Notes: a model not told the origin generated them from the letters alone. DNA of 64,000 nucleotides from Calditrichia bacterium (GCA_028284905.1 JANQQU010000030.1:124001-188000); one strand, 5' to 3'. Counted from the stretch's first letter, positions 8,489-25,332 are shown. Numbers and translations: made by a program.

Positions 8489-8763
8489 GGCAGTAGCAGA
8501 GGCAGTGGGCCCGGAAGGTCCACGGTTTATACAATCTTTACAAACGCGTTTTCATGGCTTCAACTGCCATAAAATGAAAGCCGAGTTTGAATATTAGCCA
8601 CAGATAAACACAGATTTTCACTGATTTTTTCACTGTTCTGCTTATATCCGTGCAAATCCGTGTCTATCCGCGGCTAAAAATTAGGTTTTTAAGGTGTTTT
8701 TGTAACATATAAACTTGTGTATAAACCGTAGCCCTTCGGGGCCCACTAGCTTCAAGCTACTGC
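8489..8763. repeat. Long imperfect inverted repeat enclosing a second palindromic repeat
   Basis: The outer arms are 8489-8545 and 8700-8763. Read on opposite strands, both contain GCAGTAGC, AGTGGGCCC, GAAGG and CGGTTTATACA in the same order. Between them lies a second palindrome. There is no open reading frame inside. The arrangement looks like a non-autonomous element of about 275 bp, or two stacked repeats. Confidence 0.65.
8595..8676. repeat. CCACAGATAAACACAGAT-type palindromic repeat
   Basis: The left arm (8595-8616) reads TAGCCACAGATAAACACAG and the right arm (8655-8676) reads ATCCGTGTCTATCCGCGGC, an imperfect complement. From memory, repeats of this type are scattered in many environmental bacterial genomes; I have no copy number here. 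Confidence 0.7.
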
Positions 8764-11103: not shown

Positions 11104-11329
11104 CATTTGCTCCTGATATTTATGCCTCACTTCATATCAGAGTCATTTGCCTGTCTGAAAATCTCATCTCAGTATTGACTGCACAACTCCTGGCATTTTG
11201 AAATCTTTCCGGAAAGTAAATTGTGATCTGTTTCGTTAGATTTTGCCTGGTGGTCAATATAATATGGAAATAATGTTTTGCTCGATAAAAGTGGCGAAAC
11301 AGTCGTTATATCCCAATGTTGGTACATTC

Positions 11330-12520
11330 ATGAAATTAAGGAAATGGGCAAATTTTTTAACACCGTTGTTAATGATCATTGGGTCAACGTTGCTCACCTA
11401 CCTGGTTTTTGAGTTTCTGATTTTTGGATCTTTCCTCTCTTCTTTACCACTAAAAACACATGAATATCTCAACAAGAGAATTCGCCCGCTTGCCCAGAGT
11501 TCGAAAAAGTCCGTTATCCCCAGGAATTATGTTGCCCTGGTTGGCGATTCTTATGCGCAGGGCTATGGTGACTGGTTTTTGGATAGCAATTTTAATGAGA
11601 ATCCGCCGTTTCATAGCGCGCATGTTATTAATCAGCGTACCGGGATAGATATCATTTCATTTGGTAAGGGCGGTGCCAGTAGCGTTCGGGGTATGGTGAC
11701 TTTGCCGATTGCTCACTATGAATACATCAATGCCACACCGCAGTTCGAGCTGGCGCGGCCCGGAGGGATTATTGTCTATTTTTATGAAGGAAACGATTTA
11801 AATGACAATATCACTCTCATTGAGCGACATTTTCAAAAACATTTCGATATGGATAGAATTTATGACCGGGAATATTTTCGGGAGTTTATAGACTATACCA
11901 TCAATAAAGAGCATCCGTTAAGGCGAATGGAAAGTTCGATGAAAATTAAGGATTACCTGCCCTTTGCGAACTTCTCCTATCATCTGTTGAAGAGTGTACT
12001 GCCTGCTGAACCTCCAGCAAAGCAGCGTTCTGCGAAAAAAGTGACAGCCCCTCCCAATATTATTCAACTTCTTGACGGCGAAGTGGAAATTCCGAGGGGA
12101 TTACAATCCCCGGCGCTCGGCTTGAAAGAAGCAGAGTTGACGCTTGCTATCTATGTTTTCGAACAATCGTTAAGGTATTTGAGAGAATACTTTAAAGATG
12201 TGCCAATCGGAGTTGTCTACATCCCTTCTCCGTTATCTTGCTATGAAATAGCTTCCCGGGAGGTCTCGATACAAACATACCAAAACGAAGAGGTCATCTA
12301 TGACGGGCAATTGGTACGAACTAGAAGTAATGCCATTTGCTACCGGCTAAAAGAAGTTGCTGATCAACAAGGAGTGACGTTTGTGGACGCCAGAGAATAC
12401 CTTTGGCCGGTTGCCCAGGAAGAGATCATTCATGGCCCGAGAGACTGGAAGCATTTTAATAAAAAGGGCTATACGATTTTGGCAGAAGCGGTGATCGCAT
12501 TACTCGATAGGATGAAATGA
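11330..12520 (+). CDS. Membrane-anchored SGNH-hydrolase-like protein
   Basis: An N-terminal hydrophobic segment (FLTPLLMIIGSTLLTYLVFE) should anchor the protein with its body outside the cytoplasm. VGDSYAQG (residues 71-78) is the GDS block I with serine 74 as likely nucleophile. DWKHFNKKGY near the C-terminus matches the D-x-x-H of block V. GKGGASSVRG fits the block II glycine and FYEGNDLND fits the block III GxND. Such enzymes remove or move acyl groups on lipids or polysaccharides, comparable to AlgJ/AlgX or OAT accessory proteins. Longer frames begin at TTG 11243 or ATG 11264, but no position has a good ribosome site; ATG 11330 starts just before the anchor. Confidence 0.75.
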   Translation: MKLRKWANFLTPLLMIIGSTLLTYLVFEFLIFGSFLSSLPLKTHEYLNKRIRPLAQSSKKSVIPRNYVALVGDSYAQGYGDWFLDSNFNENPPFHSAHVINQRTGIDIISFGKGGASSVRGMVTLPIAHYEYINATPQFELARPGGIIVYFYEGNDLNDNITLIERHFQKHFDMDRIYDREYFREFIDYTINKEHPLRRMESSMKIKDYLPFANFSYHLLKSVLPAEPPAKQRSAKKVTAPPNIIQLLDGEVEIPRGLQSPALGLKEAELTLAIYVFEQSLRYLREYFKDVPIGVVYIPSPLSCYEIASREVSIQTYQNEEVIYDGQLVRTRSNAICYRLKEVADQQGVTFVDAREYLWPVAQEEIIHGPRDWKHFNKKGYTILAEAVIALLDRMK

Positions 12521-12563: not shown

Positions 12564-13286
12564 TCAACGTTGAAGAGACATTTGCGCGGAAGCTTTCCCC
12601 GGCCGAATAGCCCCATCCTCGATATACAACACCCGATCAGCAACGGAGATCATCCGTTGATCATGACTGGCAACAATGACGGACTTCCCGTGAGATTTTG
12701 TCAGGCGATGCAGCAACTGGATAATTTCAAATCCCTGTGTAGACTCTAGATTGGCGGTCGGCTCATCAGCGATAATTAGTCCGGCGTTATTAGCGAGGGC
12801 GCGGGCGATGGCTACTCGTTGCTTTTCTCCCTGGCTGAGCTGTTTCGGAAATCTGCCGGCGAGTTTGGCAATATCCAGCTGTGCCAACAATGCGAGCGCT
12901 TTTTTCTTTGCGGCAGATCTGGATGTGCCAAGAAATTCCTGCACCAGTACAATATTCTGCAGCACGCTTAAGGCGTCAATCAGGAGAAAGTTTTGAAATA
13001 CAAAGCCGACTTTTCCGGCGCGCAATTTCTGAAGATCGCGCTTTCCGTATGTCTGCAAATCCTGCCCGAATAATCTTACTTTACCAGCGCTGGGTTGGAT
13101 AAAACCAGCGATTAGCGTTAACAACGTGGTTTTCCCGCTGCCACTTGGGCCTAGCAATAAAATCAACTCGCCGGGATAAACTTGCAGAGAAACATCGCAG
13201 ACCGCATTGGTGAAATGATCGTTCTGCCGAAAAGTTTTACTGAGATTTTCTAATTGCACTATCGGAAATCTATTATTCGTTTTCAT
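12564..13286 (-). CDS. ABC transporter ATP-binding protein, LolD/MacB type
   Basis: A 240-residue ATPase of the usual length. Walker A is GPSGSGKTT (46-54), the signature motif LSQGEKQ (150-156), Walker B IIADEPTANLE (171-181), and the switch histidine is H208. The family energises FtsX-type permeases that extract lipoproteins, lipids or peptides from the inner membrane instead of pumping across it. Its start overlaps the stop of the permease gene (ATGA at 13283-13286), so the pair should be made together. As last gene of the lipid operon it most likely helps move the lipid product or a linked lipoprotein. Confidence 0.93.
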   Translation of the reverse strand: MKTNNRFPIVQLENLSKTFRQNDHFTNAVCDVSLQVYPGELILLLGPSGSGKTTLLTLIAGFIQPSAGKVRLFGQDLQTYGKRDLQKLRAGKVGFVFQNFLLIDALSVLQNIVLVQEFLGTSRSAAKKKALALLAQLDIAKLAGRFPKQLSQGEKQRVAIARALANNAGLIIADEPTANLESTQGFEIIQLLHRLTKSHGKSVIVASHDQRMISVADRVLYIEDGAIRPGKASAQMSLQR

Positions 13287-14392
13287 GCGAAAGCCTCCAA
13301 AGGATAAATGTGGCGAATCCGCCGCATGGAAATGCCGGCACTGAGCAAGCTGAGAATGGCAACCGCCAGGATCACCGCGATTATTTGCGCAGGCGTGGAA
13401 ATGACGCTGACCTCCGGCACCATTGTTTCGATAAGGGCGATCATCGGGAAAAAGGAAAGCAGTGCGGCCAGGGTGGAAATGGCGGCGAGCATCAAAGCCT
13501 GACTGACAATCAACCGTCGTAAAAAGCGCAATGGGGAACCAATCGCTTTCAGTACCGCAAAATCCTGGCGTTGCTCGAGAATGTTGATGGAAAGCAGCAA
13601 GCTTAAAATGGCCGTCAGCACGATGATCCCAATGATGGCAATGGTGGAAATGAAAGGAAGAAAACCGGCTTCCATCTCCCGGATGTTGTTATCGAGAAAG
13701 GTCTGATGATCATAGACCTCGATCATGCCAGCCATTTCCTCGCGGATTTCCGCTGCCGATTGTTCCGGAGAATACCCATCCGCTACCTGCACGACAAAGC
13801 AGGTGACGATATTGGGAAAACGGATGAGCGCCTGCGCCCGTTTGAGAGTCACAAAAGCATATTGAATGACCAGGGCATTGGTACCGCTGGAAATGCCGAC
13901 AACGGTGAGCGTATCGTCCTGAATATGCACCGGGTCGCGCAGTTGATAATCATATTTCTGCGCAAAGGCTTTATCCAGCACAATCTCCTCATCACTCTCC
14001 ACATTCCGTCCCTCGACGATATGGGGCGGACCACCGGCGCCGCGCTCCGGCTGAAAACCGGTGAGAAATACTGTCGTCATTTCGCCCTCTTTTTCAATGC
14101 CGGAAAGCAGGAGAAGAATTGGGGCGGCGGAATCGACACCATCGAGATCTTCGATGAGCATGCCATGGCCGGTGGAGAGCAGGGAAGAGCCGCGTAAAAT
14201 GTTCCAGGCGTTTCGCTGCAGGATCCAGAAGTCGGCGCGATTTTCCCGGATAAACTCCACTGATCCGTCCTTGACACCGCGATAGATTGCCAGCAGAAAT
14301 AACATCAGCACGATGCACAGGGCAATGCCGCCGACGGTAAACAAAAGACGCTGCGGTTGCTTTTTTAATGTGTGAAATGCATACTGGAACAT
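13283..14392 (-). CDS. ABC transporter permease, FtsX/MacB family
   Basis: A protein of 369 residues with one membrane segment near the N-terminus (LLFTVGGIALCIVLMLFLLA), a periplasmic domain of about 200 residues, and three C-terminal segments around FISTIAIIGIIVLTAILSLL, LMLAAISTLAALLSFF and IIAVILAVAILSLLSAG. This is the four-helix plan of MacB/LolE permeases. LEQRQDFAVLKAIGSPLRFL is the coupling region that contacts the ATPase. The start is ATG 14392 because AAGGAG (14400-14405) lies 7 nt upstream; the 56-residue extension possible in this frame lies over btaA and has no ribosome site. The gene overlaps the end of btaA by 28 bp. Confidence 0.92.
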   Translation of the reverse strand: MFQYAFHTLKKQPQRLLFTVGGIALCIVLMLFLLAIYRGVKDGSVEFIRENRADFWILQRNAWNILRGSSLLSTGHGMLIEDLDGVDSAAPILLLLSGIEKEGEMTTVFLTGFQPERGAGGPPHIVEGRNVESDEEIVLDKAFAQKYDYQLRDPVHIQDDTLTVVGISSGTNALVIQYAFVTLKRAQALIRFPNIVTCFVVQVADGYSPEQSAAEIREEMAGMIEVYDHQTFLDNNIREMEAGFLPFISTIAIIGIIVLTAILSLLLSINILEQRQDFAVLKAIGSPLRFLRRLIVSQALMLAAISTLAALLSFFPMIALIETMVPEVSVISTPAQIIAVILAVAILSLLSAGISMRRIRHIYPLEAFA

Positions 14393-15504
14393 GATGGCAC
14401 TCCTTCCGCATATTGTGGGTTCGTTGACAATTCCCAGAGTTGGAATCCGCCATAAAAGAATGTCCGGCTTTCCCGATACAATTTTTCCGAGAGCTGCGGC
14501 CGGGATTTTAAAAAATCCTGCCAGACCGGTATGAGTGGGCGGGGAATAAATAAATGCCAAAAAGCGATCCTTGCCCCGTCGTCACTGGCCCGGAGAATAT
14601 TGACCATGGTTTTTTCAAATATTGGCGGGGACATATATTCGAAGACATCGGACAAATTAAATGCGGAAAACGTCGCTGCCGGTTGTCTTAGCAAGTAGGC
14701 ATTAATGTCCGCACAAACCAGGCGAATCCGCGCCAGATTGTCTTTTAGATAAGCAAAATTATTTGCCCGTAAATAAGGAGGTAGGGCATCCCGCTGACTA
14801 AATTTTCCATTAAGGATATAATCGAGGAAGTAGTTATCGGCATTGTCAATTGTTGTTAAGCCTCGGTGGGATCTTTCCAGCAATACATCCGCGATATTTT
14901 TGCGGGAAACGAATTTAAAGGCATCGGGATAACGGCCTAATTTACCGAGGAGGGTCTCGTTAAAAAAAGCGCGAAAGAGCCAACGCCAGCGCCGGCAGTC
15001 CCATATCTCTGCGTAGAATTTCTCCATCTCGTCTGTCGAGCGTGATTGCAGTAAATCCCGGCAGGTTTCCCGGGAATGAATCAGTGGAAGCATCCAGCGG
15101 CGAAACAAGGCGAAATATGCTTCAAATTTTCCCCTGTGAATTACTCCCTTATCAATGGCGGCTGGCTGATTATCCCAGAAACGCCGGGCATCTTCACTGA
15201 GCATATTTTTTAACCTTTGGTAAAATCGTTGTCGATTAGTGCAAGGCGTAACGCCGAGAAAGGTCAGGAAATCTTCATAAGTCAATATCTGTATCGCGCG
15301 CATTTTTAACTCGGTGAGATAGAGCTGCGCGGGATTGCAATCAATTGCGGTGATGCTGGCGGGATTGTCCAATAGGAGCGCAAAGGTATTGTCTCCGGCG
15401 GAAGCGATGGAAAGGAGATGATCCTGCGGTGTAATCCGTAAGGCCGCTCGGACAGTTGCCGGATCTTCCCAGCATTGGGCGTAGTGTATTCGATGTTTAG
15501 TCAT
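14365..15504 (-). CDS. btaA: BtaA-type S-adenosylmethionine:diacylglycerol 3-amino-3-carboxypropyltransferase (DUF3419)
   Basis: A 379-residue protein with the hallmarks of BtaA. IHYAQCWEDP (residues 6-15) is the family's N-terminal motif. LSIASAGDNTFALLL with AIDCNPAQLYLTELK (31-67) forms the SAM-binding Rossmann loop. A later FSAFNLSDVFEYMSPP segment matches the conserved catalytic stretch. BtaA moves the four-carbon aminocarboxypropyl group of SAM to the free hydroxyl of diacylglycerol, giving diacylglyceryl-homoserine, the first step of betaine lipids. The N-methyltransferase BtaB that finishes DGTS is absent from the window. The ATG at 15504 overlaps the psd stop (ATGA) and is preceded by AGGAG. 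Family confident; the exact acceptor is inferred. Confidence 0.82.
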   Translation of the reverse strand: MTKHRIHYAQCWEDPATVRAALRITPQDHLLSIASAGDNTFALLLDNPASITAIDCNPAQLYLTELKMRAIQILTYEDFLTFLGVTPCTNRQRFYQRLKNMLSEDARRFWDNQPAAIDKGVIHRGKFEAYFALFRRWMLPLIHSRETCRDLLQSRSTDEMEKFYAEIWDCRRWRWLFRAFFNETLLGKLGRYPDAFKFVSRKNIADVLLERSHRGLTTIDNADNYFLDYILNGKFSQRDALPPYLRANNFAYLKDNLARIRLVCADINAYLLRQPAATFSAFNLSDVFEYMSPPIFEKTMVNILRASDDGARIAFWHLFIPRPLIPVWQDFLKSRPQLSEKLYRESRTFFYGGFQLWELSTNPQYAEGVPSCSSMHFTH

Positions 15505-16463
15505 GATGAAATCTCCTGCCCGGGGCATTTTGCCAGAGTGGTTTTTTCAGATGTTTTAGTGCTGATTTTCTGCCCAATCGACTCGCCCATCCATACCTGG
15601 GTTTCCAGGCCGTTGGCGCTATTGGCGAGCAGGTCTGCATCAAAGCGGATAACGTTTTTTTGAAATAACAATACCACTGTCGATCCGCCTAACTCGAACC
15701 AGCCCTTATGATCCCCCCGGCGTAGCGGCTGCCCCGGCTGATAATCCTGCCGGATGGCGCCAACGGTAAACGCACCGATTTCCACGATTAAGATTTCTCC
15801 AAATGATTGTGAGTGAAAAGCGGTGCGAACACGATAATTCTCAGCAAAAAATGGCAGAAAACGCCGGTGGGCATAAGGCCCGCCGGCGTAATATCTGCCG
15901 TTGATGGGGTAAGCTGTGTCCGCGATGCCATCAGCGGGGAAATGGGTGTGGTGATAGTCTTTAAGATGCAAGCGGCATACGGCCATCGACCCGCCGTTAA
16001 AGCGTCGGGCGAGATTCTCATCACGGAGAAATGTGTGAAGGTTGAAAGAATGCCGTTTAATCGAAAAGGAACGATCCGCGCTGATTCCTTCATATACCAA
16101 AACTTTACTGTCCGCTGGTGCGATGCAGATGCCCGGACGACGATCTATTTTTCTCCGGGATAAATCTATCCGGCGGATAAAGAAATCATTGAAAGAGGCA
16201 AAAGAGGCCAGTGGTTGCAGTAATTCTGAACAGTCGATGTTCATCTGTTGGACGAATGGGGCAATTTTCCGGCGGCTGTATGTTTGCCGATGCCACCAGC
16301 CATACAGTCGGGAAACCCACTGCCGGCTTAGCAAAAAATGAGTGAGGAAAATTCCCAGATGAGAGTTGTAACTCCAATTGAGAAAACGCCCGGCAAAAAC
16401 AGTCTCTTGTTTTACCTGTCCATCCTGACGATCAACATAAAAGATGGCCGGCAGCTTGCTCAT
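15501..16463 (-). CDS. psd: Phosphatidylserine decarboxylase proenzyme (type II-like)
   Basis: A 320-residue pyruvoyl-enzyme precursor. FELGGSTVVLLFQKN contains the self-cleavage site; serine 261 of GGST should become the pyruvoyl group. APADSKV supplies the aspartate and DYHHTHFPADG the histidine of the processing triad, so the protein looks active. Known members turn phosphatidylserine into phosphatidylethanolamine at the membrane. No phosphatidylserine synthase is encoded nearby. Instead the gene is stop-start coupled to btaA (ATGA) and to the upstream GNAT-like gene (ATGA at 16460-16463), which raises the possibility that it acts on a homoserine-type lipid. About 20 extra residues follow the usual end of the family. 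GGAGG precedes the ATG. Confidence 0.88.
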   Translation of the reverse strand: MSKLPAIFYVDRQDGQVKQETVFAGRFLNWSYNSHLGIFLTHFLLSRQWVSRLYGWWHRQTYSRRKIAPFVQQMNIDCSELLQPLASFASFNDFFIRRIDLSRRKIDRRPGICIAPADSKVLVYEGISADRSFSIKRHSFNLHTFLRDENLARRFNGGSMAVCRLHLKDYHHTHFPADGIADTAYPINGRYYAGGPYAHRRFLPFFAENYRVRTAFHSQSFGEILIVEIGAFTVGAIRQDYQPGQPLRRGDHKGWFELGGSTVVLLFQKNVIRFDADLLANSANGLETQVWMGESIGQKISTKTSEKTTLAKCPGQEISS

Positions 16464-17599
16464 TTCGTCCTCCGCGAAAATTCATACAACTCATATTCCC
16501 GTCGAAAATCTGCTACTTGATCGCCTAATAATCTTAGCGCCCGACTGCCTTCTGCAACCAATGCCAGGGTCATCTCCGAGAATCCGGCGGTGATAATCTG
16601 GCCGATGATGTAGGAGAAAATGGCGTGGCCCAATCCGCTCTTTTTGTGCATTTCAGCCGGGGTTATTCCTCCGAAATACAATAGCACGCGTTTGGCTTTG
16701 CACATCTGTCGGCGGAATTTTAATAAGTGATAAATATCCCGCCGGCCCTTTAATGCGCGCAGGGCATCGCCAACATCCGGAAAGGCGCAGCCATAGCCGG
16801 CCAGCTGTTGTGTTTCATCGGAAACCATGGTAAACAGCTGGGAGTGAAATACCGGGCGATAGGGTAAAAATAGCGCAGTGAATTCTGCTTCGGAAATCGG
16901 CGTGAATCCTAAAAAGTTGCGGAAAGAAGGCAGCAATAGCTGATACCAGCGACGCAACTCTTCCCGGAAGCGATCCAATTGAAAGTGGGCGAAATAATAT
17001 CCCTGATCGACCAGCTCATGGTAGCGCTGTAGCCAGCAGTCGTAAAAATACTGTAACGAATTGATGCTATTGTATTCCAGGCTAAACCAGCGTTGCCGGG
17101 GGATAAAGCCATACGCCTGAAACATCTCCGGATAGTAGGCTTGCTGATACGGTTCGCCGGGAAAAATGCTTCTTCCAAATCCTTTCGTCATAAAACGATA
17201 GCCATGCCAGATGTCGAAATTCATTGGCCCCCAAATATCGCCGGAATGCGCTTCCTTCTCCAGCCAGGAGAGGGCTGTATCGAGTAAATCCTGCGCAACG
17301 GCTTTATCCGGCACACATTCAAAAAAGCCGATGGTGGCAACGGGTTTCTCCTTGTCATTCTTTAATTTCTGGTTAATGAAAGCGGAAATCCGCCCGAGCA
17401 CTTTTTTATCCTTCAGCGCCAGAAAATGCCGGTGACGATTGTCGGCTTTTTGATAGAATGGAAACGTCGCTGCTAGTTGCGCTTTAATATCCTGCCGGCG
17501 GGGTGGGAGCCAGTTTTTATCGTCGCGGTAAAGCTCGTACGGGAATGCCACAAATTTCTCGGCAAGGTTGTGATCGAATGTGAAGCTAGTGATTGCCAC
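16460..17599 (-). CDS. GNAT-like acyltransferase protein of unknown substrate
   Basis: A 379-residue soluble protein. The start (FVAFPYELYRDDKNWLPP) is typical of a family of large GNAT-related proteins, in which a first half with GRISAFINQKLK and IGFFECVPDK resembles the acetyl-CoA-binding beta strands. WGPMNFDIWHGYRFMTKGFG follows. The C-terminal half has a second GNAT-like unit ending in GLGHAIFSYIIGQIITAG. The start codon is GTG (17597-17599), with GGGAGGTGA upstream inside the end of the dikinase gene; only 3 bp separate the two genes. In this operon it could acylate a lipid or its precursor. Family call moderate, function inferred only from context. Confidence 0.65.
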   Translation of the reverse strand: MAITSFTFDHNLAEKFVAFPYELYRDDKNWLPPRRQDIKAQLAATFPFYQKADNRHRHFLALKDKKVLGRISAFINQKLKNDKEKPVATIGFFECVPDKAVAQDLLDTALSWLEKEAHSGDIWGPMNFDIWHGYRFMTKGFGRSIFPGEPYQQAYYPEMFQAYGFIPRQRWFSLEYNSINSLQYFYDCWLQRYHELVDQGYYFAHFQLDRFREELRRWYQLLLPSFRNFLGFTPISEAEFTALFLPYRPVFHSQLFTMVSDETQQLAGYGCAFPDVGDALRALKGRRDIYHLLKFRRQMCKAKRVLLYFGGITPAEMHKKSGLGHAIFSYIIGQIITAGFSEMTLALVAEGSRALRLLGDQVADFRREYELYEFSRRTK

Positions 17600-17602
17600 T
17601 TC

Positions 17603-20278
17603 TCACCTCCCGTTTTTGCCGTTGTAATGGATACTTTCACTAATAACAATCTCCCCACTGCCGCCATCCATTTTCAGCAGACTGCCGTTGGGAATTTGCC
17701 GGGTCGCATTTTTTACCCCAATAATGGTGGGAATACCGAGCTCCCGCCCGATAATCGCAGTATGGGATAAAACACTTCCTTTTTCCACGACAATGCCTTT
17801 CGCCGCCAGCATGAGAAACACCCACCCGGGATCAGTGGATTTCGCTACGAGAATATGATCCCCGCCAATATTCGCTGTTTCCGGATGATGGACGATTTGA
17901 GCCGGCGCCAGCACAACACCGGACGCGCAACCGGTTCCCCGTAATACGTTGCTGCTCGACTGAATCTCTTCGCAGGTTTGCAAATCTTGCAGATCAGGAA
18001 TCCCGCGCGTGATGAATCTTTCCGGTAGTTGCGAGGATTTATAGCTGGCATATTCCGTTTTGCGGAGCGCTACCAGTCCGGGTAAGTTTTTTGTGACCGC
18101 ACTTCCTTCCACTGTAGCAAATATTTCCTGATGGGTTAAGTAAAAGATGTCTTTCGCCGGAATGATTTCCCGGGCAGCAAGCAGTTCGCCAAAGCGCCGG
18201 AAAATGCGCCGAATAAGTCCAAAAAAGCGACTGCGGGCGAAGCGCATATTTTCCCGGTTTTTCACAGCCAACCGGCAATTGCGGAGAATGACGCTAAAAA
18301 ATAAGCGTTTGAGTGGGTGGTGCAGCGTCCGCCGAACAATTGCTTCTGCGTTTTCTCGAATCAGGCGATCCTGGCTTTCCAATTGCTCGACATTAAGTCC
18401 GCTGTTTGCATAATGGCGGATATACTGTAATAGTCGCTCCGGCGCTTCCCGGAATCCCGGCGTTTCTAACTTCAGTTCTTCAAAACTACGATCGCCATAA
18501 TGTTTTAGATAGCTTGCCAGTGATGTTTTCAATGTGGCAAAGGCGGGGTCGTATTGGATGCGGGCCCTGATAATCGGTATATTTTCATCCTGGAACAGTG
18601 CCCGATACAGCGGATTTTCCCGCACGTTTTCCGCCAGCTTAATGAGCATATGTACCGGCGCAACACTTTCCACACCGCTTTCCCCGGCGAGTAAATCGTT
18701 TTGTAAATTGGTATGCTTCTCCAGGCCCCAACGCTGGCAGAGCTGTTTGAGCCAGTGATAGTATTTCATCGCACAAAAATCGTTAAACAACGTTAGATGC
18801 CAAAAAGCGCTGAGAGAATTCGCAATCGAGTGGTAGTAGTGGATTAGCTCATTTTCATTGGCGTTGGCGATGTCCCAATCCCGCGCGGTTTTGTAAAAGG
18901 CGTTAAATTTCCGGAAGAATTTCCGGGCGTTTCCTTTACCACTGAGTAATTTCCAGGTGATAATCAGCCAACCATAACAGCGGTTCAACAGGGAGAGCTG
19001 CTGGCCGGGAAAATCCATCGGTTCGTCGATGCCGATCATTTCGTCCCACGCTTCCTTGTGCTTTTCAAATCCCGGTAGAAAGGAGAGCATCTGGTACCAG
19101 CTGAGAAGATTGTAATAGACGCGTCCGTTCAGCAAACCGAGCATTTGTTTGAACAGGGGCATGCTGCTCTTCAACACTTTCTTTTGCAGTAAAAAGCTGC
19201 GAGTGGTATTGCTAAACGCGGTTTCGTAACAGTCCTGGATAAAGCTGAAAGTGAGTGGCAAGGTTAAGCCGGGATAGCTCTCGACAATATTGGCATTATC
19301 CCAAACTCTACGGTAGCCTGGATGGAAAACGATTGGGCGGGATTGTAAAATAAACAAACGTCCTTGTTGGTCATAGGTCCATTCGATATCCTGCGGTTGC
19401 CCAAATTTTTGTTCCGCTTGTGCAGCTAGCTTGCTGAGCTCGCGAATTTGCTGATCGCTTAGCACAGCGTTTTTTTGCTTGGAAGGGGAGAGTGCCTCCA
19501 ATCGATGGCTTGATTCCGCCGTTGGGGCATAAATAAAAGCATTCTTTTTCTTCGGGATGGTTCTGTGAAAATCCCCGCTGTGGCGGTTGATTCGATAAGT
19601 GTCAGTATCTACCTGGTTGCTGACCACGCCTTCTCCTAATCCGAAACCAGCGGAGATAAGGCAGTATTGATGGCGATTTTCCGGATCATCACTAAACATC
19701 ACCCCGGAGGAGGTGGCACGAACCATTGGCTGGATAATCACCGCTGCGGAGATCGCCAGAGGATCCAGCCTTTTTTTATGGCGGTAAATGAGCGCACGTG
19801 GAGAAAAAGCAGACGCCCAGACCTGTTTGATTTTTTGGGGGATCTCGGAGAACGCCACATCGAGATAGGAATTCATTAATCCGGCAAAGGAATTTTTCGC
19901 CGAATCTTCTCCCAGCAAGGAAGAACGAACGGCGAAGTGCGTCTGCTTTGAAACTGCCGGTTTAATCTTCTCCCGGCACGCCTGCCATAATTTTTCCGGA
20001 AAAGGAAATTGTAGTATCAGTGTTTCAATTGCCGCGGTGGCTTCCTTCAGCTGTTGTTGGTTCTGATAATTTATTCCTTTTAAGTGATGCGCAATTGCTG
20101 GCCGCAACTCTCGAAAAACTTCCTGGAAATTCTTTGTGGAAACGACCCACCAGTCGGGAACATTAAATCCGTATTTCCTCAGGAGGAAGAGGTTCGCTGC
20201 TTTTCCGCCCACCAGTGCTGCTTTTGCAGCAAGTGGATTTTGCCAATCGAGAATAAGTTGTTGATGGTTTGCAGTCAT
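17603..20278 (-). CDS. PEP-synthase-family dikinase with rifampin-phosphotransferase architecture
   Basis: An 891-residue protein in three parts. Residues 1-320 are an ATP-grasp PPDK/PEP-synthase domain: LVGGKAANLFLLRKYGFNVP, FAVRSSLLGED, SAGFGLGEGVVSNQVDTDTY and FILQSRPIVF. The middle 430 residues are mostly helical and unassigned. The end is the swivelling phosphohistidine domain, GSVLSHTAIIGRELGIPTI, with histidine about 839. There is no C-terminal PEP-binding barrel, so this is not a true PEP synthase. Order and length match rifampin phosphotransferase, which splits ATP to AMP and phosphate and phosphorylates an acceptor bound by the middle domain. Inside a lipid operon the acceptor may be a lipid or head group. 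ATG 20278 is chosen because AAGGAG lies 6 nt upstream. Confidence 0.82.
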   Translation of the reverse strand: MTANHQQLILDWQNPLAAKAALVGGKAANLFLLRKYGFNVPDWWVVSTKNFQEVFRELRPAIAHHLKGINYQNQQQLKEATAAIETLILQFPFPEKLWQACREKIKPAVSKQTHFAVRSSLLGEDSAKNSFAGLMNSYLDVAFSEIPQKIKQVWASAFSPRALIYRHKKRLDPLAISAAVIIQPMVRATSSGVMFSDDPENRHQYCLISAGFGLGEGVVSNQVDTDTYRINRHSGDFHRTIPKKKNAFIYAPTAESSHRLEALSPSKQKNAVLSDQQIRELSKLAAQAEQKFGQPQDIEWTYDQQGRLFILQSRPIVFHPGYRRVWDNANIVESYPGLTLPLTFSFIQDCYETAFSNTTRSFLLQKKVLKSSMPLFKQMLGLLNGRVYYNLLSWYQMLSFLPGFEKHKEAWDEMIGIDEPMDFPGQQLSLLNRCYGWLIITWKLLSGKGNARKFFRKFNAFYKTARDWDIANANENELIHYYHSIANSLSAFWHLTLFNDFCAMKYYHWLKQLCQRWGLEKHTNLQNDLLAGESGVESVAPVHMLIKLAENVRENPLYRALFQDENIPIIRARIQYDPAFATLKTSLASYLKHYGDRSFEELKLETPGFREAPERLLQYIRHYANSGLNVEQLESQDRLIRENAEAIVRRTLHHPLKRLFFSVILRNCRLAVKNRENMRFARSRFFGLIRRIFRRFGELLAAREIIPAKDIFYLTHQEIFATVEGSAVTKNLPGLVALRKTEYASYKSSQLPERFITRGIPDLQDLQTCEEIQSSSNVLRGTGCASGVVLAPAQIVHHPETANIGGDHILVAKSTDPGWVFLMLAAKGIVVEKGSVLSHTAIIGRELGIPTIIGVKNATRQIPNGSLLKMDGGSGEIVISESIHYNGKNGR

Positions 20279-20288
20279 CACTATCTCC

Positions 20289-21215
20289 TTACAATCCCAG
20301 TGTAAATTCGCAGATAATTGCCAGGTAGCAGCTCAGGATGTATCCTTCCGTGTATGGCCTTAGCAGCGCGGTACCTGGCTTTTCCGTCAGTAGAAAACGG
20401 ATACCGGCAATTAACGGGAGGGTAAATCCCACCAGAAAAATGAGTAGAAAAATGAGAGAAAGCTGTAGCTGCTGTTGGAAGTAAACTCCGAGTAGTAAAG
20501 CAAGTAATTGAACCGCAATGGCAATAACTACAGATCCGCGAAAGCCGAAAATTTGCGAATAGGTGACGTAAGCATCTTCCGCCCGCGGGGCGCGGATTTT
20601 CCGCACAAATTCCCAGGAAAAGAGCAGCAACCAATACATCCCGATCAACCAGAGAATATTGCCGTCGATCTGCCGCCAGCTGAGTTGTTGCGCCTGCAGG
20701 TAAATTTGGGCGAGATAAATGAGCATGATTGGGATAATCGGATTGTGGGTGAGCAGATTCAGCAGCAAATGCTTTTTCAGGATTCTTGGAATGAAGAAAA
20801 ATTTGAACATTAGGAGGGCGTAGATTAATACAGCGGCGGCGATGAGAAAGTTAGAACTACTGCCGATTGATGGGATGAGGAAAAAGGCCATAGCAATAAA
20901 GAGGCTAAAGGCGATGTCATTCTTCAGGACTTTGCCGGAGGGGAGCGGGCGCTGCGGAAACAAGCGTTCGTCGATGTCCTGATCTTTCAATTCATCCATC
21001 AAGCGTAAAACCAGCAAGAGCATAAACACGCTCCAGGCGCCGACCAGGCTATATCCGCTCAGAAAATCGAAACTGGCACCTTTTATCCAGGAGAGCGCCA
21101 TCATAAAGCTGCCGGAAAGGAAAACTGCCTGCAGCAGGCGCTGCCCGGGAGGAAACATCTCTGTTAAATAAACAGCCATTCTTTTACTATATCCGCTTGT
21201 TGGGATGGGAATCAT
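20289..21215 (-). CDS. UbiA-superfamily membrane prenyltransferase-like protein
   Basis: A 308-residue integral membrane protein with about eight or nine hydrophobic segments. LVLRLMDELKDQDIDERLFPQ then RPLPSG (residues 69-94) is the first aspartate-rich motif, in the R-x-x-DE-x-KD-x-x-x-D form seen in a large UbiA subgroup. RAPRAEDAYVTYSQIFGFRG is the second conserved region. UbiA enzymes join an isoprenyl diphosphate to an acceptor; some make ether-lipid cores. The aspartates needed for magnesium-diphosphate binding are present. AAAAGGAG (21222-21229) sets ATG 21215; an 11-residue extension to 21248 has no ribosome site. The short gap to the dikinase holds only that gene's ribosome site. 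Substrates unknown. Confidence 0.75.
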   Translation of the reverse strand: MIPIPTSGYSKRMAVYLTEMFPPGQRLLQAVFLSGSFMMALSWIKGASFDFLSGYSLVGAWSVFMLLLVLRLMDELKDQDIDERLFPQRPLPSGKVLKNDIAFSLFIAMAFFLIPSIGSSSNFLIAAAVLIYALLMFKFFFIPRILKKHLLLNLLTHNPIIPIMLIYLAQIYLQAQQLSWRQIDGNILWLIGMYWLLLFSWEFVRKIRAPRAEDAYVTYSQIFGFRGSVVIAIAVQLLALLLGVYFQQQLQLSLIFLLIFLVGFTLPLIAGIRFLLTEKPGTALLRPYTEGYILSCYLAIICEFTLGL

Positions 21216-21228
21216 GATATTCTCCTTT

Positions 21229-22140
21229 TTAAGCCGGTACGATAACATTTAATGCCGAGGGCAGAAGCTTGATATTGAATGTCCGCGTTGGCGGGAGCGT
21301 CTCTCCATCCGCAAAAAAAGTCAACGGCTTTTCGGTTTGAACGGTCAGTTCGGATTCCTGCCATAAATGCGTCTGCGGGGAATAAATGTGTTGACCTTTT
21401 AGCACTTGTAGAATGACCGACAAAATGCCCAGGCGGGAGCGCAAGCTTTCGATCAAGCAGACATCGAAGCGTCCGTCATTGTTTTTTGCCTGTGGGGTCA
21501 TCTGGAAATGGGAGCCGAGAAAATGTTGATTATCGATCATCAGGAAAAGGCTGTCCCAATCAGCGACGGCGCCATTGCAACGAACGGTGACCGGATAACG
21601 ATGGGCGTCCTTCCGGAATAGAGACATCAGGGTTGCCAGCACGTATATTCTGCTACCGAGGAGGCGCAGCAGCAGTTTGCCGAAATAGGCACGCCGCTTC
21701 AATTTATTGGCGCGATGGCTGACGTCGCTGGCCATGCCGAACCCGCCCGCCGTAACGTAGCACCAGCCGTTAACAGAAATGATATCGGCCTGGCAATCAT
21801 TTCCATAACGGATAATCTCGCAGGCTTTTTCCGGATCGGCGGGAATTTGATATAAGTTGGCAAGATCGTTGGCAGTGCCGGCGGGGATAATACCCAGGGC
21901 AACATCGCGCCCGGCGATAATATTCAGCACTGCGTTGATGGTGCCATCGCCACCGACGGCGACAACAATATCAATTTTTTCGGCATCCAGCCTTCGCTGC
22001 AAATCTTCATGCATTTCCTCGACCGAAGGATGCTCGATGATGCCGGCAATGTATGGGGCAAATTGCTGATGAATAATTGATTTGATTTGCTCGCTACGGC
22101 CATTTTTCGCCCTGGGATTGATGACAACCAGCATTTTCAT
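21229..22140 (-). CDS. Diacylglycerol-kinase-family lipid kinase (YegS/DgkB-like)
   Basis: A 303-residue enzyme. VVINPRAKNGRS opens the domain. AVGGDGTINAVLN (61-73) is the nucleotide-binding GGDGT motif, and IPAGTANDLA (85-94) is the second glycine-rich motif. GGFGMASDVSHRANKLKRRAYFG fits the conserved stretch after the hinge, and FFADGETLPPT the C-terminal DGE element with a catalytic aspartate. The family phosphorylates diacylglycerol, phosphatidylglycerol, sphingoid bases or similar lipids. It is the first gene of the lipid operon. ATG 22138-22140 is chosen for its AAGGAG about 9 nt upstream; the 31-residue extension in this frame lacks one. Confidence 0.9.
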   Translation of the reverse strand: MKMLVVINPRAKNGRSEQIKSIIHQQFAPYIAGIIEHPSVEEMHEDLQRRLDAEKIDIVVAVGGDGTINAVLNIIAGRDVALGIIPAGTANDLANLYQIPADPEKACEIIRYGNDCQADIISVNGWCYVTAGGFGMASDVSHRANKLKRRAYFGKLLLRLLGSRIYVLATLMSLFRKDAHRYPVTVRCNGAVADWDSLFLMIDNQHFLGSHFQMTPQAKNNDGRFDVCLIESLRSRLGILSVILQVLKGQHIYSPQTHLWQESELTVQTEKPLTFFADGETLPPTRTFNIKLLPSALNVIVPA

Positions 22141-22546
22141 GATGCTTGCTCCTTCCTGGTTATTTTGCCAAACCGCGCTTTCTGAGGGCCGATTTGTTCC
22201 AGACATTGATTGCCTGCACCCTGGAAAGATCAATATCTATGCCAAAATGCTACTTGAGTTTTTTGGCTTTGTTATTATTGAGTTTATGGATTTTACTTGC
22301 GAGAAGGTAATTGTCCCAGAGTATACATTTTTAGACGTTGTTGCAAAAAAGTATACTGTGGCAATTTTTGTCGAGTTTGCCCAGGGTTATGGGAAAATAG
22401 CGCGGCGAGATGTGTTCGAAGAATAAAGCAGGGGCGACATATTTTTCTGCTACGATTAGAAGGTTAAAAAAACAAGGCGATCAGTAAAGAAGGCACCGAC
22501 CGCCCTGGTAATATTATTTGAAGCAAATGTTTCAAAACCGGCGATG
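22141..22546. other. Leader region of the lipid operon
   Basis: No gene is supported. A plus-strand frame (22082-22426) overlaps the kinase gene and has no ribosome site. The promoter of the lipid operon should lie here, but no clear -35/-10 pair was seen. Confidence 0.5.
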
Positions 22547-23013: not shown

Positions 23014-23178
23014 TCGCCCCTATGGGGTTAAAAATAGTCTTTAGCTAACTTGATGCTATAAATATGCCGTCCCGCTGGGATTTTTAGGGATAACGTATTT
23101 AATGTCAATTTAACGCCCTGTAGGGGCGTAATATTTATAGCTGTTTATTCGGCAAAGCCCCTTAGCCCTGTAGGGGCG
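23014..23178. repeat. Three copies of a short CCCTGTAGGGGCG hairpin repeat
   Basis: Copies lie at 23014-23027 (GCCCCTATGGGG), 23114-23128 (GCCCTGTAGGGGCG followed by TAATATTTATAGC) and 23165-23178 (GCCCTGTAGGGGCG). Each is a short palindrome. The last sits just past the stop of the beta-helix gene and may add a weak 3' hairpin to its transcript. From memory, similar sequences are common between genes in Bacteroidota relatives. Confidence 0.7.
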
Positions 23179-23181
23179 GAA

Positions 23182-25332
23182 TTAACGCATCAATATCATT
23201 TTTCGTTGCTGCACGAAGTTGCCGGCCCGCAAGCGGTAGATATAGATGCCGGAGCTGAGCGCCCTTCCCGAACGATCACGCCCATCCCAATGATATCGAT
23301 AATTACCCGCTGCTAACTCCTCTGCGACTAATTCGATCACTGCCTCTCCAAGAATATTATAAACTCGCAAGCTGACCCATTCGGACCTTGGAATTTCGAA
23401 TTCGATCATAGTTACCGGATTAAAAGGATTGGGATAATTTTGCTGCAGGAAATATTGAGATGGCAGATTCTCCGAGAGCGGTTCGAGTCCAACAGGCATT
23501 GCCGATTCGTGAGCACCGATATCGGGGCGGGAACCGAAAGGGGTCGGGCGCGGGTTGCCAGCAAAATCGTCATGTGGCGCGAAGTACCAAACTCCCTCGA
23601 TTTCAATGGAATCGATACCGGCACTAATGCAGGGACTGGCATCCGAAAGCTCAAAAGTCGTTGGGGAAAGAAAAGCCGGGTTCGCGTCGATGTTTCCCAG
23701 ACCTTCCCAACCATGCTGTACATCGCTATAGCGCACAGCTAATGTGCCGACGGATTGGGTAAGTTGTTCGGGAGTATTCTCCCAAAGGATCGTATTAACA
23801 ATTGTAACCTGACTAGAACTATCGACATAAACACCACCGCCGCTGCCGCTGGCCATATTATTAACGATAGTGCTATTGATGATTTCCGCCTGTAATGGTG
23901 CAAGTGGAGTGCCGGACGCGTAAACGGCAGCGCCAAGGGTAGCGCTATTCCCGGTGTATATATTGTTGCTGGATTGAATCATGCCGCGAATCAGACGCAT
24001 CCCGCCGCCAATGGATACCCCGCCTTCAGCAGAATTTTCTTGAAAATAATTACCGCTAACAATCCCAATGGAATTATTAATGGCGATGCCGCCACCGATG
24101 CCATAATCAAAAAGGCTGCTGGCGGTGTTTTTGAGAAATTGATTCCCGCGAATCCGGGGATAGTCGCCAGCGGAATCACCACTATCCTGAAGACCCAATC
24201 CTCCCCCCGAACCCCGCCCGGCAATACTTTTTGCCGTGTTGTTTTCAAAAAGATTATTTTCCACAAGAATATCCGCAGTGTTAAAAAGGAATAATCCGCC
24301 ACTGACGCCATTATCATCGACGGCATCAGCTAAATTCTCCCGGAAAATGTTCTCGCGGATTATGCTGTTTTGTAATGAATCCACCGCCCAAATATAACTC
24401 GCCCCACCGACAGCAAATGATTGTGCAACAACTGTATCTCGTTCGAAGGCATTGCCAGCCACATAAATTTCGGTCCTGCTGCCATCGATATACATACCGC
24501 CACCCCGGCCAATGCCATTGTTCGCTGAAAGGCGGTTGTCGCTAATTGCATTGTCGCTAACGTAAACTTGAGCATCAACGCCAGAAATTAAGATACCGCC
24601 GCCACCTCCAACGGCGGCACTGGTCGTGACACGATTTCCAGAGATATGATTTCCGGAAAGGCGAAAAAGAAAATCTTCCCCGGCGCAAAAAACACCGCCG
24701 CCAACGCCAATTTCGCCGGTTGAAATTTGATTATTCATAATTCGGTTATTAGTAATGGTGGCCCCAAAGTCACTCGTACAAAAAACACCACCGCCAGCTC
24801 GAAGCAAAACATTAAAAGGGTTTGTCCATAAGGTGCCGCTACCGCCCTGGATCGTAAAACCGCTCAGCACTGAGCTGGTATCTTCCCCGGCAGCAAAAGT
24901 GACGGCAGCACCGCTATCCGGATGGGTATGCTGACTACCGTCGATAATGGTATTGTTGATATGGCTGCTGTCCCCATTAATAATGAAATAGCTGGCAACG
25001 ACAATCGCTTTCCCCTTGAAATTGATATTCTCGAAATAGGTGTTTTCATCCACCAACACGGTGTCGCCATCTGCACTGTTGTTGATCGCTGCCTGAATGG
25101 AGGGATATTGCTGCGGCACCAGGTGACGGATGCCATTTATAGCAGTTTTGGGAGGAGTTCGCCGGTGCTTTGTAGCTTTTGCAGAATTAACCGGATAGCC
25201 AGCTATTGGAAATATCGCTTCCGGACTTAAGCTCTCATTCTCACTCATGGGGGAATTATTCTGGGAGAAAATTGGTGTTCCTATTCCAGCAAGGAATACA
25301 ATACACACACAAATAAGCATCGAACGCTGCAT
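23182..25332 (-). CDS. Secreted right-handed beta-helix protein with T9SS sorting domain
   Basis: A 716-residue protein. The signal peptide is MQRSMLICVCIVFLAGIGTP with cleavage after IFSQ. A segment beginning YPSIQAAINNSADGDTVLVD opens a choice-of-anchor/parallel beta-helix domain, followed by many NN-x-I and GGG-x-x-I coils (GGGGGILISG, GGGMYIDG, GGGLGLQDSG). RPDIGAHE closes the helix, and a type A sorting domain ends the protein (NYPNPFNPVTMIEFEIP, LGEAVIELV, GIYIYRL). Such proteins bind or cut polysaccharides at the cell surface; no catalytic residues were recognised. GAGGG precedes the ATG. It runs in the same direction as the MORN protein 150 bp upstream. Confidence 0.9.
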   Translation of the reverse strand: MQRSMLICVCIVFLAGIGTPIFSQNNSPMSENESLSPEAIFPIAGYPVNSAKATKHRRTPPKTAINGIRHLVPQQYPSIQAAINNSADGDTVLVDENTYFENINFKGKAIVVASYFIINGDSSHINNTIIDGSQHTHPDSGAAVTFAAGEDTSSVLSGFTIQGGSGTLWTNPFNVLLRAGGGVFCTSDFGATITNNRIMNNQISTGEIGVGGGVFCAGEDFLFRLSGNHISGNRVTTSAAVGGGGGILISGVDAQVYVSDNAISDNRLSANNGIGRGGGMYIDGSRTEIYVAGNAFERDTVVAQSFAVGGASYIWAVDSLQNSIIRENIFRENLADAVDDNGVSGGLFLFNTADILVENNLFENNTAKSIAGRGSGGGLGLQDSGDSAGDYPRIRGNQFLKNTASSLFDYGIGGGIAINNSIGIVSGNYFQENSAEGGVSIGGGMRLIRGMIQSSNNIYTGNSATLGAAVYASGTPLAPLQAEIINSTIVNNMASGSGGGVYVDSSSQVTIVNTILWENTPEQLTQSVGTLAVRYSDVQHGWEGLGNIDANPAFLSPTTFELSDASPCISAGIDSIEIEGVWYFAPHDDFAGNPRPTPFGSRPDIGAHESAMPVGLEPLSENLPSQYFLQQNYPNPFNPVTMIEFEIPRSEWVSLRVYNILGEAVIELVAEELAAGNYRYHWDGRDRSGRALSSGIYIYRLRAGNFVQQRKMILMR

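Follow-up and report, generated by a model that had tools for sequence, protein, structure and literature searches.

An eight-gene operon of a Calditrichia bacterium as a rare form of a widespread gene cluster, possibly for an exported N-acylated lipid

Introduction

The described systems closest to the genes considered here are the BtaA/BtaB pair of the betaine lipid diacylglyceryltrimethylhomoserine (DGTS), archaeal digeranylgeranylglyceryl phosphate (DGGGP) synthase, the RPH, PigC and RedH proteins, the DevBCA exporter of heterocyst glycolipids, and bacterial ceramide synthesis, for which the serine palmitoyltransferase Spt and the acyltransferase bCerS form a known pair in Caulobacter (PMC11087976), their genes often being clustered (PMC11334938). 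We analyzed an operon that brings together protein families from these systems. It consists of eight tightly packed, co-oriented genes on the minus strand (positions 12564-22140) of a stretch of 64,000 nucleotides from a Calditrichia bacterium (GCA_028284905.1, JANQQU010000030.1:124001-188000), hereafter the window. All component families are known; their combination is apparently new.

A first-pass annotation of the window had interpreted these genes as one unit for a polar lipid outside the standard pathways of phosphatidylethanolamine (PE) and DGTS, and had known of no described pathway with the full set. The results below agree that the genes form a unit outside both pathways, and we too found no such pathway in the open-access literature, subscription papers and preprints lying outside the search. 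The open-access papers that mention DUF3419, a domain encoded in the operon, concern algal, plant-lineage or fungal subjects, judging by their titles and abstracts. The cluster and its product are apparently undescribed. The operon represents the type II form of a wide cluster. Our leading reading, tentative and at somewhat less than even odds, is that the cluster builds an amphiphile for export: S-adenosylmethionine (SAM) would donate its 3-amino-3-carboxypropyl group to a lipid alcohol, and the amine would then be N-acylated.

Results

In the order of transcription, the operon begins with a lipid kinase gene (21229..22140; DAGK_cat, PF00781, 5e-25; YegS_C, PF19279, 1.5e-20), a gene for a UbiA-superfamily membrane transferase (20289..21215; NCBIfam prenyltransferase model PRK13592, 4.5e-39), one for a dikinase of the PEP-synthase/RPH/PigC type (17603..20281; PF01326, 5e-74; PF00391, 9e-22; PRK06241.2-2, 695 bits) and one for a protein of 379 amino acids, which model, fold matches and tree place as a two-lobed GNAT-type N-acyltransferase (16460..17599). 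These are followed by genes for a pyruvoyl enzyme of the PSD family (15501..16463; PF02666, 8e-50), a BtaA-like DUF3419 protein of the SAM:aminocarboxypropyl-transferase type (14365..15504; PF11899, 6e-73), a DevC-like ABC permease of the MacB/FtsX type (13283..14392; PF12704, PF02687; TIGR01185 DevC, 61 bits) and an exporter ATPase of the DevA/LolD class (12564..13286; TIGR02982 DevA, 205 bits, and TIGR02211 LolD, 185.5 bits, both under cut-off). The close packing reported in the first-pass annotation is present in full: 4-base ATGA overlaps join GNAT to PSD (16460-16463), PSD to DUF3419 (15501-15504) and permease to ATPase (13283-13286), the DUF3419 and permease genes overlap by 28 bases (14365-14392), and the other gaps measure 3, 7 and 13 bases. 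Because of these overlaps and gaps the eight genes are likely to form a single transcript. A GGAGG-like ribosome site lies upstream of the kinase gene.

Pfam confirms six of the eight proteins (ABC_tran, MacB_PCD/FtsX, DUF3419, PS_Dcarbxylase, PPDK_N with PEP-utilizers, and DAGK_cat/YegS_C). The UbiA protein and the 379-residue protein, each searched alone, had no Pfam match and were placed through profiles over their cluster relatives and through AlphaFold models built with the relatives' alignments. Thus six of the family names given earlier are backed by Pfam and the UbiA name by NCBIfam and fold, but the GNAT family had been missed and left out of that annotation's title. Two names were revised: the DUF3419 protein falls outside the canonical BtaA clade, and the exporter, previously likened to LolD/FtsX pairs, is better fitted by the DevA and DevC models than by LolD and LolE.

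Conservation of the neighborhood in related genomes, which the first-pass annotation had set as a test of its reading, does not hold in the literal sense, the operon being nearly absent from the window's own phylum. The conservation extends, however, over at least 20 other phyla. A protein search found DUF3419 in three of 40 genomes of the window's phylum, and the window's own genome is the only one of them with a clear member of the UbiA subfamily. Scanning an alignment of two DUF3419 proteins against 85,000 species genomes gave 273 relatives; we fetched the best 80 loci, ranked by similarity to the DUF3419 protein of the window, and the frequencies are therefore not a census. Metagenome assemblies supplied many of these loci, and the phylum assigned to some of them may be mistaken. 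Gene starts were called mechanically, and families were located in all open reading frames (ORFs) of the loci with profiles made from window and Roseinatronobacter proteins.

The first distant relative, on a plasmid of Roseinatronobacter sp. S2, encodes consecutively UbiA, the dikinase, DUF3419, a membrane kinase-like protein, GNAT and an AMP-ligase. UbiA, dikinase and DUF3419 occur together in 61 of the 80 loci, which span at least 20 named phyla. All three are joined by GNAT in 52 loci, and because of this co-occurrence the grouping is not attributable to chance. In 35 loci the sequence reaches 7 kb or more to either side of DUF3419; of these, UbiA and the dikinase are each found in 34, GNAT in 32, the AMP-ligase in 29, a SEC59/VTE5-like membrane kinase in 28 and an HMGR-like protein in 23. 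The order HMGR-UbiA-dikinase-DUF3419-SEC59-GNAT-AMP-ligase, which we call type I, is identical in 15 of these 35 loci; in five more, GNAT and AMP-ligase are shifted to the front as a pair. The HMGR-like, SEC59-like and AMP-ligase partners could not be seen from the window alone. The name SEC59/VTE5-like, which we take to be justified by recognized sequence motifs, refers to proteins that had no match in Pfam or NCBIfam. The near-absence of the operon in its own phylum, together with its conservation in distant phyla, points to horizontal transfer. Viral contigs gave no match.

Exporters recur in the cluster. The window and loci L031 and L037 have an ABC pair and L068 has an ABC ATPase, and an MMPL/RND-type exporter stands inside or beside the cluster instead of the ABC pair in L033 (7818-9965), L059 (12470-14746), L097 and L105 (4626-6437). 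In Verrucomicrobiota, loci L045 (1836-9884), L067 and L073 represent a variant that adds a PigE-like class-III aminotransferase (about 840 amino acids), a SnoaL-like protein and a further dikinase, and in which no SEC59-like gene was found.

The window shares its form of the cluster, type II, with L031 (Ignavibacteriales) and L032 (labelled Deltaproteobacteria). Here a DAGK-family kinase occupies the place of the SEC59/VTE5-like kinase found in most relatives and PSD that of the AMP-ligase, for which no gene was found at the three loci. Besides L031 and L032, the DAGK profile matches in L105, and within type II the ABC pair is present in the window and L031. Two loci, L061 and L095, mix the types, combining dikinase, DUF3419 and SEC59-like genes with UbiA, GNAT and PSD. 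The DUF3419 tree groups the proteins from the window, L031 and L032 in a single clade (99/96), and the GNAT tree does the same for the five loci that carry PSD (window, L031, L032, L061 and L095; support 98). Because of these two clades in the sequence trees, we regard type II as a real lineage, rare and present in four or five phyla. The idea that PSD replaces both HMGR and AMP-ligase was dropped: L032 has HMGR and PSD, and the window's genome contains an unlinked HMGR-like gene. In the loci examined, only the exchange of AMP-ligase for PSD holds. L031 also encodes a PF07993 acyl-CoA/thioester reductase directly before the DAGK gene.

The SAM-binding region of the DUF3419 protein (A-G-x-N ... 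D-x-x-P-x-Q) was read from alignments, and by analogy the enzyme presumably transfers an aminocarboxypropyl group from SAM. In its tree, which like the HMGR and GNAT trees and alignments was made with MAFFT and without manual curation, and which excludes the S. meliloti ORF, the cluster proteins form a clade separate from canonical BtaA and from a type associated with alpha-oxoamine synthases or KAS (95/87), the canonical sequences being long branches. The eight operon genes include no btaB-like N-methyltransferase gene, the rest of the genome not having been searched for btaB. The name BtaA is too specific for this subfamily. In two other loci of the same phylum, DUF3419 adjoins a second SAM-dependent methyltransferase-like ORF, as in canonical btaA-btaB pairs (L004), or lies between an alpha-oxoamine-synthase-like gene and GNAT (L003). 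On the Rhizobium plasmid pMK-2 (L028:1814-8152) it is accompanied by genes for KAS III, an epimerase, MBL, a CoF-synthetase-like protein and an unknown protein; the DUF3419 proteins of L028 and L003 belong to another clade with different gene sets.

The HMGR-like proteins of the cluster (n = 41) keep the catalytic residues E559, K691, D767 and H866 in essentially all cases. At two further positions all 41 differ from human HMGR: S684 is replaced by E, and K735 by M, V, A, L, F or I. S684 and K735 contact the carboxylate of 3-hydroxy-3-methylglutaryl (HMG) in the human enzyme, and their loss is an indication that the substrate may have changed. The unlinked HMGR-like gene in the window's genome encodes 514 amino acids (G000:C85:89603-91144; L117:7604-9148) and has the signature E684/Q657/I735; five sampled relatives of this gene likewise have S684 replaced by E and K735 by a hydrophobic residue. 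Its product is a candidate for a non-HMG acyl-CoA reductase. In some sampled genomes a gene of this type lies near genes for a GMC oxidoreductase, an acyltransferase, a phasin and a polyhydroxybutyrate regulator (polyhydroxyalkanoate-granule genes), a neighborhood that hints at acyl-chain metabolism. The window's genome holds a separate HMGR-family gene within a group of mevalonate-pathway genes.

The UbiA protein is modelled with high confidence (mean pLDDT 93.3) and, in the model, has the all-helical membrane fold of UbiA. The nearest solved fold is archaeal DGGGP synthase (6m31, 7bpu) at a TM score of 0.63-0.69 and 16-17% identity. The motifs LRxxDExKDxxxD and ExxRKx(6)E are invariant across 35 sequences of the subfamily, and the homologue in L027 matches PF01040 at 2.4e-11. 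The dikinase comprises an ATP-grasp domain, a long central domain and a phospho-His domain (SHTAIIGRE), whose motif was recognized in 59 of 63 relatives. It scores high with the PigC and RedH models and stays below every equivalog cut-off (RPH 314.5 vs 999). On two Streptomyces plasmids (L029:10303-15680 and L030:4669-10616) related dikinases adjoin AfsA-type and isoprenylcysteine-methyltransferase genes, possibly as part of a butanolide-type pathway that uses the same dikinase family.

By sequence, the 379-residue protein gave chance-level matches only to solved structures. Its AlphaFold model (mean pLDDT 93.7) has a two-lobed N-acyltransferase (GNAT) fold, with 202 PDB matches at E <= 0.001; tandem GNATs are the best of these, and mycothiol synthase and, ranked lower, N-myristoyltransferase are also matched. 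In the GNAT tree the type II proteins fall on the same side as GNATs from their own phylum, two of which adjoin a serine-palmitoyltransferase-like gene. One such pair is in the window's genome, where a second GNAT of the broad family directly follows the serine-palmitoyltransferase-like gene (L113:8287-10787; SerpalmtaseCFB 494 bits, cut-off 640), and another is in the relative L115. These pairs likely represent ceramide synthesis in the window's phylum; neither an Spt nor a CerR gene is among the eight genes of the operon. No GNAT was found at L068, where the AMP-ligase has a formyltransferase-domain protein as its neighbor; a formyltransferase in the GNAT's stead fits the capping of an amine.

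Aligned to the E. coli enzyme, the PSD of the operon keeps the GST self-cleavage site (GGSTVV) and the catalytic His (DYHHTH), and has Arg in place of Tyr137 and Ala in place of Ser166. An altered substrate, considered on account of these lost phosphate contacts, is not supported, Arg at position 137 being normal in part of the family (15% of PSDs; PMC7952604). The family includes members that act on other amino acids, and L-tryptophan decarboxylase is among the solved relatives of the operon's PSD. Another PSD gene adjoins a pssA-like gene elsewhere in the window's genome.

Consensus scans of the region upstream of the operon detected, on the minus strand, a terminator-like hairpin of 14 pairs (22473..22507), followed by promoter-like sites (22347-22290). 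Between this region and the next gene lie palindromic GCCCTGTAGGGGCG units (23055-23182), arranged as two direct copies 50 nt apart and a 19-nt inverted pair. At the other end, a GDSL-lipase-family gene on the plus strand (11243-12520) converges on the operon, with 43 bases between it and the stop of the ATPase gene. Farther away, non-coding DNA contains a 30-nt inverted repeat (8504-8533 and 8718-8747; 90% complementary, 184 nt apart), a possible remnant of a mobile element.

Discussion

In the pathway that we propose, the catalytic assignments, the order of the steps and the product follow the chemistry of the families, applied to the gene content, conservation, folds, clades and conserved residues that were observed. 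A lipid alcohol would first be made, in type I and L032 probably by the HMGR-like protein acting as acyl-CoA reductase; the PF07993 reductase in L031 and the unlinked HMGR-like gene in the window's genome are possible alternatives. The alcohol, or a glycerolipid, would be phosphorylated by the DAGK-type kinase (in type I by the SEC59-like protein), the phospho-His of the dikinase would phosphorylate or activate it further, and UbiA would, like DGGGP synthase, form an ether-type bond. DUF3419 would then transfer the aminocarboxypropyl group from SAM and GNAT would N-acylate the amine. The PSD-family enzyme of type II would decarboxylate an amino-acid-bearing lipid or supply PE, and the DevA/DevC-type ABC pair would export the product.

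The alcohol step is suggested by the residue losses in the HMGR-like proteins and by the reductase in L031, the ether step by the resemblance of the UbiA model to archaeal DGGGP synthase, the N-acylation step by the GNAT fold, its Spt-adjacent kin and the formyltransferase of L068, and the export step by the recurring ABC and MMPL exporters. Going further, and more doubtfully, the cluster may define a new class of bacterial lipid that has reached at least 20 phyla through a mobile pathway of seven to eight genes: an ether-type, N-acylated, homoserine-like lipid, decarboxylated to an aminopropyl lipid in type II, with its alcohol supplied by a repurposed HMGR homologue.

Several observations weigh against the proposed pathway. 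R590 and K692, which also contact HMG in HMGR, are kept in the HMGR-like proteins of the cluster. The unlinked HMGR-like gene need not belong to the pathway, because about 11 further genomes of the phylum, all without the operon, contain relatives of it that are full-length or partial and 63-81% identical. UbiA enzymes usually require an allylic diphosphate, and in this subfamily the Asp-rich motif 1 (DExKDxxxD) is invariant but motif 2 reads E202..R205K206..E213 instead of the usual DxxxD. The DUF3419 protein had no match among solved structures. The GNATs of types I and II, at about 22% identity, may act differently, and the PSD could be an ordinary one, given its Arg at the position of E. 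coli Tyr137.

An alternative explanation, which we consider unlikely, is that the cluster makes a secreted small specialized metabolite, such as a signal, an antibiotic or a pigment, that the dikinase is a condensing ligase like PigC or RedH, and that the ABC and MMPL proteins export the compound. The scores of the dikinase with the PigC and RedH models agree with this, as do the PigE-like aminotransferase and second dikinase of the verrucomicrobial clusters, the AfsA-type neighbors of the Streptomyces dikinases, and the sporadic distribution, plasmids included, which fits specialized metabolism. However, three types of integral-membrane lipid enzymes (UbiA, SEC59/DAGK and PSD) recur together with lipid-type exporters, and we noticed no polyketide synthase or nonribosomal peptide synthetase genes in the cluster core.

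The HMGR and UbiA folds, with DGGGP synthase as nearest fold to the latter, could also represent a true mevalonate or prenyl branch leading to a prenyl-ether aminolipid or a prenylated compound, and SEC59/VTE5-like kinases act on prenols. The E at S684 and the hydrophobic residue at K735 in all 41 HMGR-like proteins argue against an isoprenoid product, as does the separate HMGR-family gene in the mevalonate-pathway group of the window's genome, and in the clusters we noticed no gene for a prenyl synthase or reductase. We judge an isoprenoid product quite improbable.

Neither DGTS nor bulk PE synthesis is a good account of the cluster, because its DUF3419 clade is separate, the operon contains no btaB and another PSD gene lies beside a pssA-like gene. 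That the operon merely supplies ordinary phospholipids, PSD making PE and DAGK making phosphatidic acid with the other genes loosely associated, is a poor prospect: both enzymes look catalytically intact by sequence, but beyond the second PSD gene, PSD and DAGK are the variable parts of the cluster and UbiA, dikinase, DUF3419 and GNAT the constant ones. A DGTS operon with extra genes is hardly credible in spite of the strong DUF3419 match, the canonical form having been rejected on the DUF3419 tree and the missing btaB-like gene, and the canonical pairs (L004 and S. meliloti L118) look different.

If the conserved clusters make one class of compound, then Cyanobacteria, Planctomycetes, Verrucomicrobia, Acidobacteria, methanotrophs and sulfate reducers contain a lipid or exported amphiphile that has so far escaped notice. 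In these clusters, betaine lipids cannot safely be inferred from DUF3419, nor the mevalonate pathway from PF00368. The function of the cluster can be tested now, since carriers are available in culture: Methylomonas sp. SURF-1, Desulfobulbus rhabdoformis DSM 8777, Natronospirillum operosum and Roseinatronobacter sp. S2, as well as Microcoleus, Leptolyngbya and Phormidium FACHB strains.

Compared with the known systems, the operon shares with BtaA/BtaB a DUF3419 enzyme with its SAM-binding region and presumably the same transfer; it differs in lacking BtaB, in its separate clade, in a probably different acceptor and in an amine that is apparently acylated instead of trimethylated. The type II GNAT, compared without the bCerS sequence itself, is related to GNATs beside Spt-like genes in its own phylum, and a cytoplasmic N-acylation of lipid amines would be expected of both; however, the operon has no Spt, and its amine would derive from SAM and not from serine, in contrast to Spt-bCerS-CerR. 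Among solved folds, DGGGP synthase comes nearest to the UbiA model, whereas the low identity, the E...RK...E in place of the second metal motif and the lack of GGGP synthase and G1P dehydrogenase in the operon set the two apart. The dikinase has the domain order and phospho-His motif of RPH, PigC and RedH, but constitutes its own PRK06241.2-2-like subfamily below all equivalog cut-offs. The exporter falls short of the LolCDE equivalog cut-offs (LolD score 185.5, cut-off 307.75; LolE score 28, cut-off 439) and, although its DevA and DevC scores are below cut-off too and the operon has no DevB-like gene, its ATPase scores best with DevA and its permease with DevC, like the heterocyst glycolipid exporter DevBCA.

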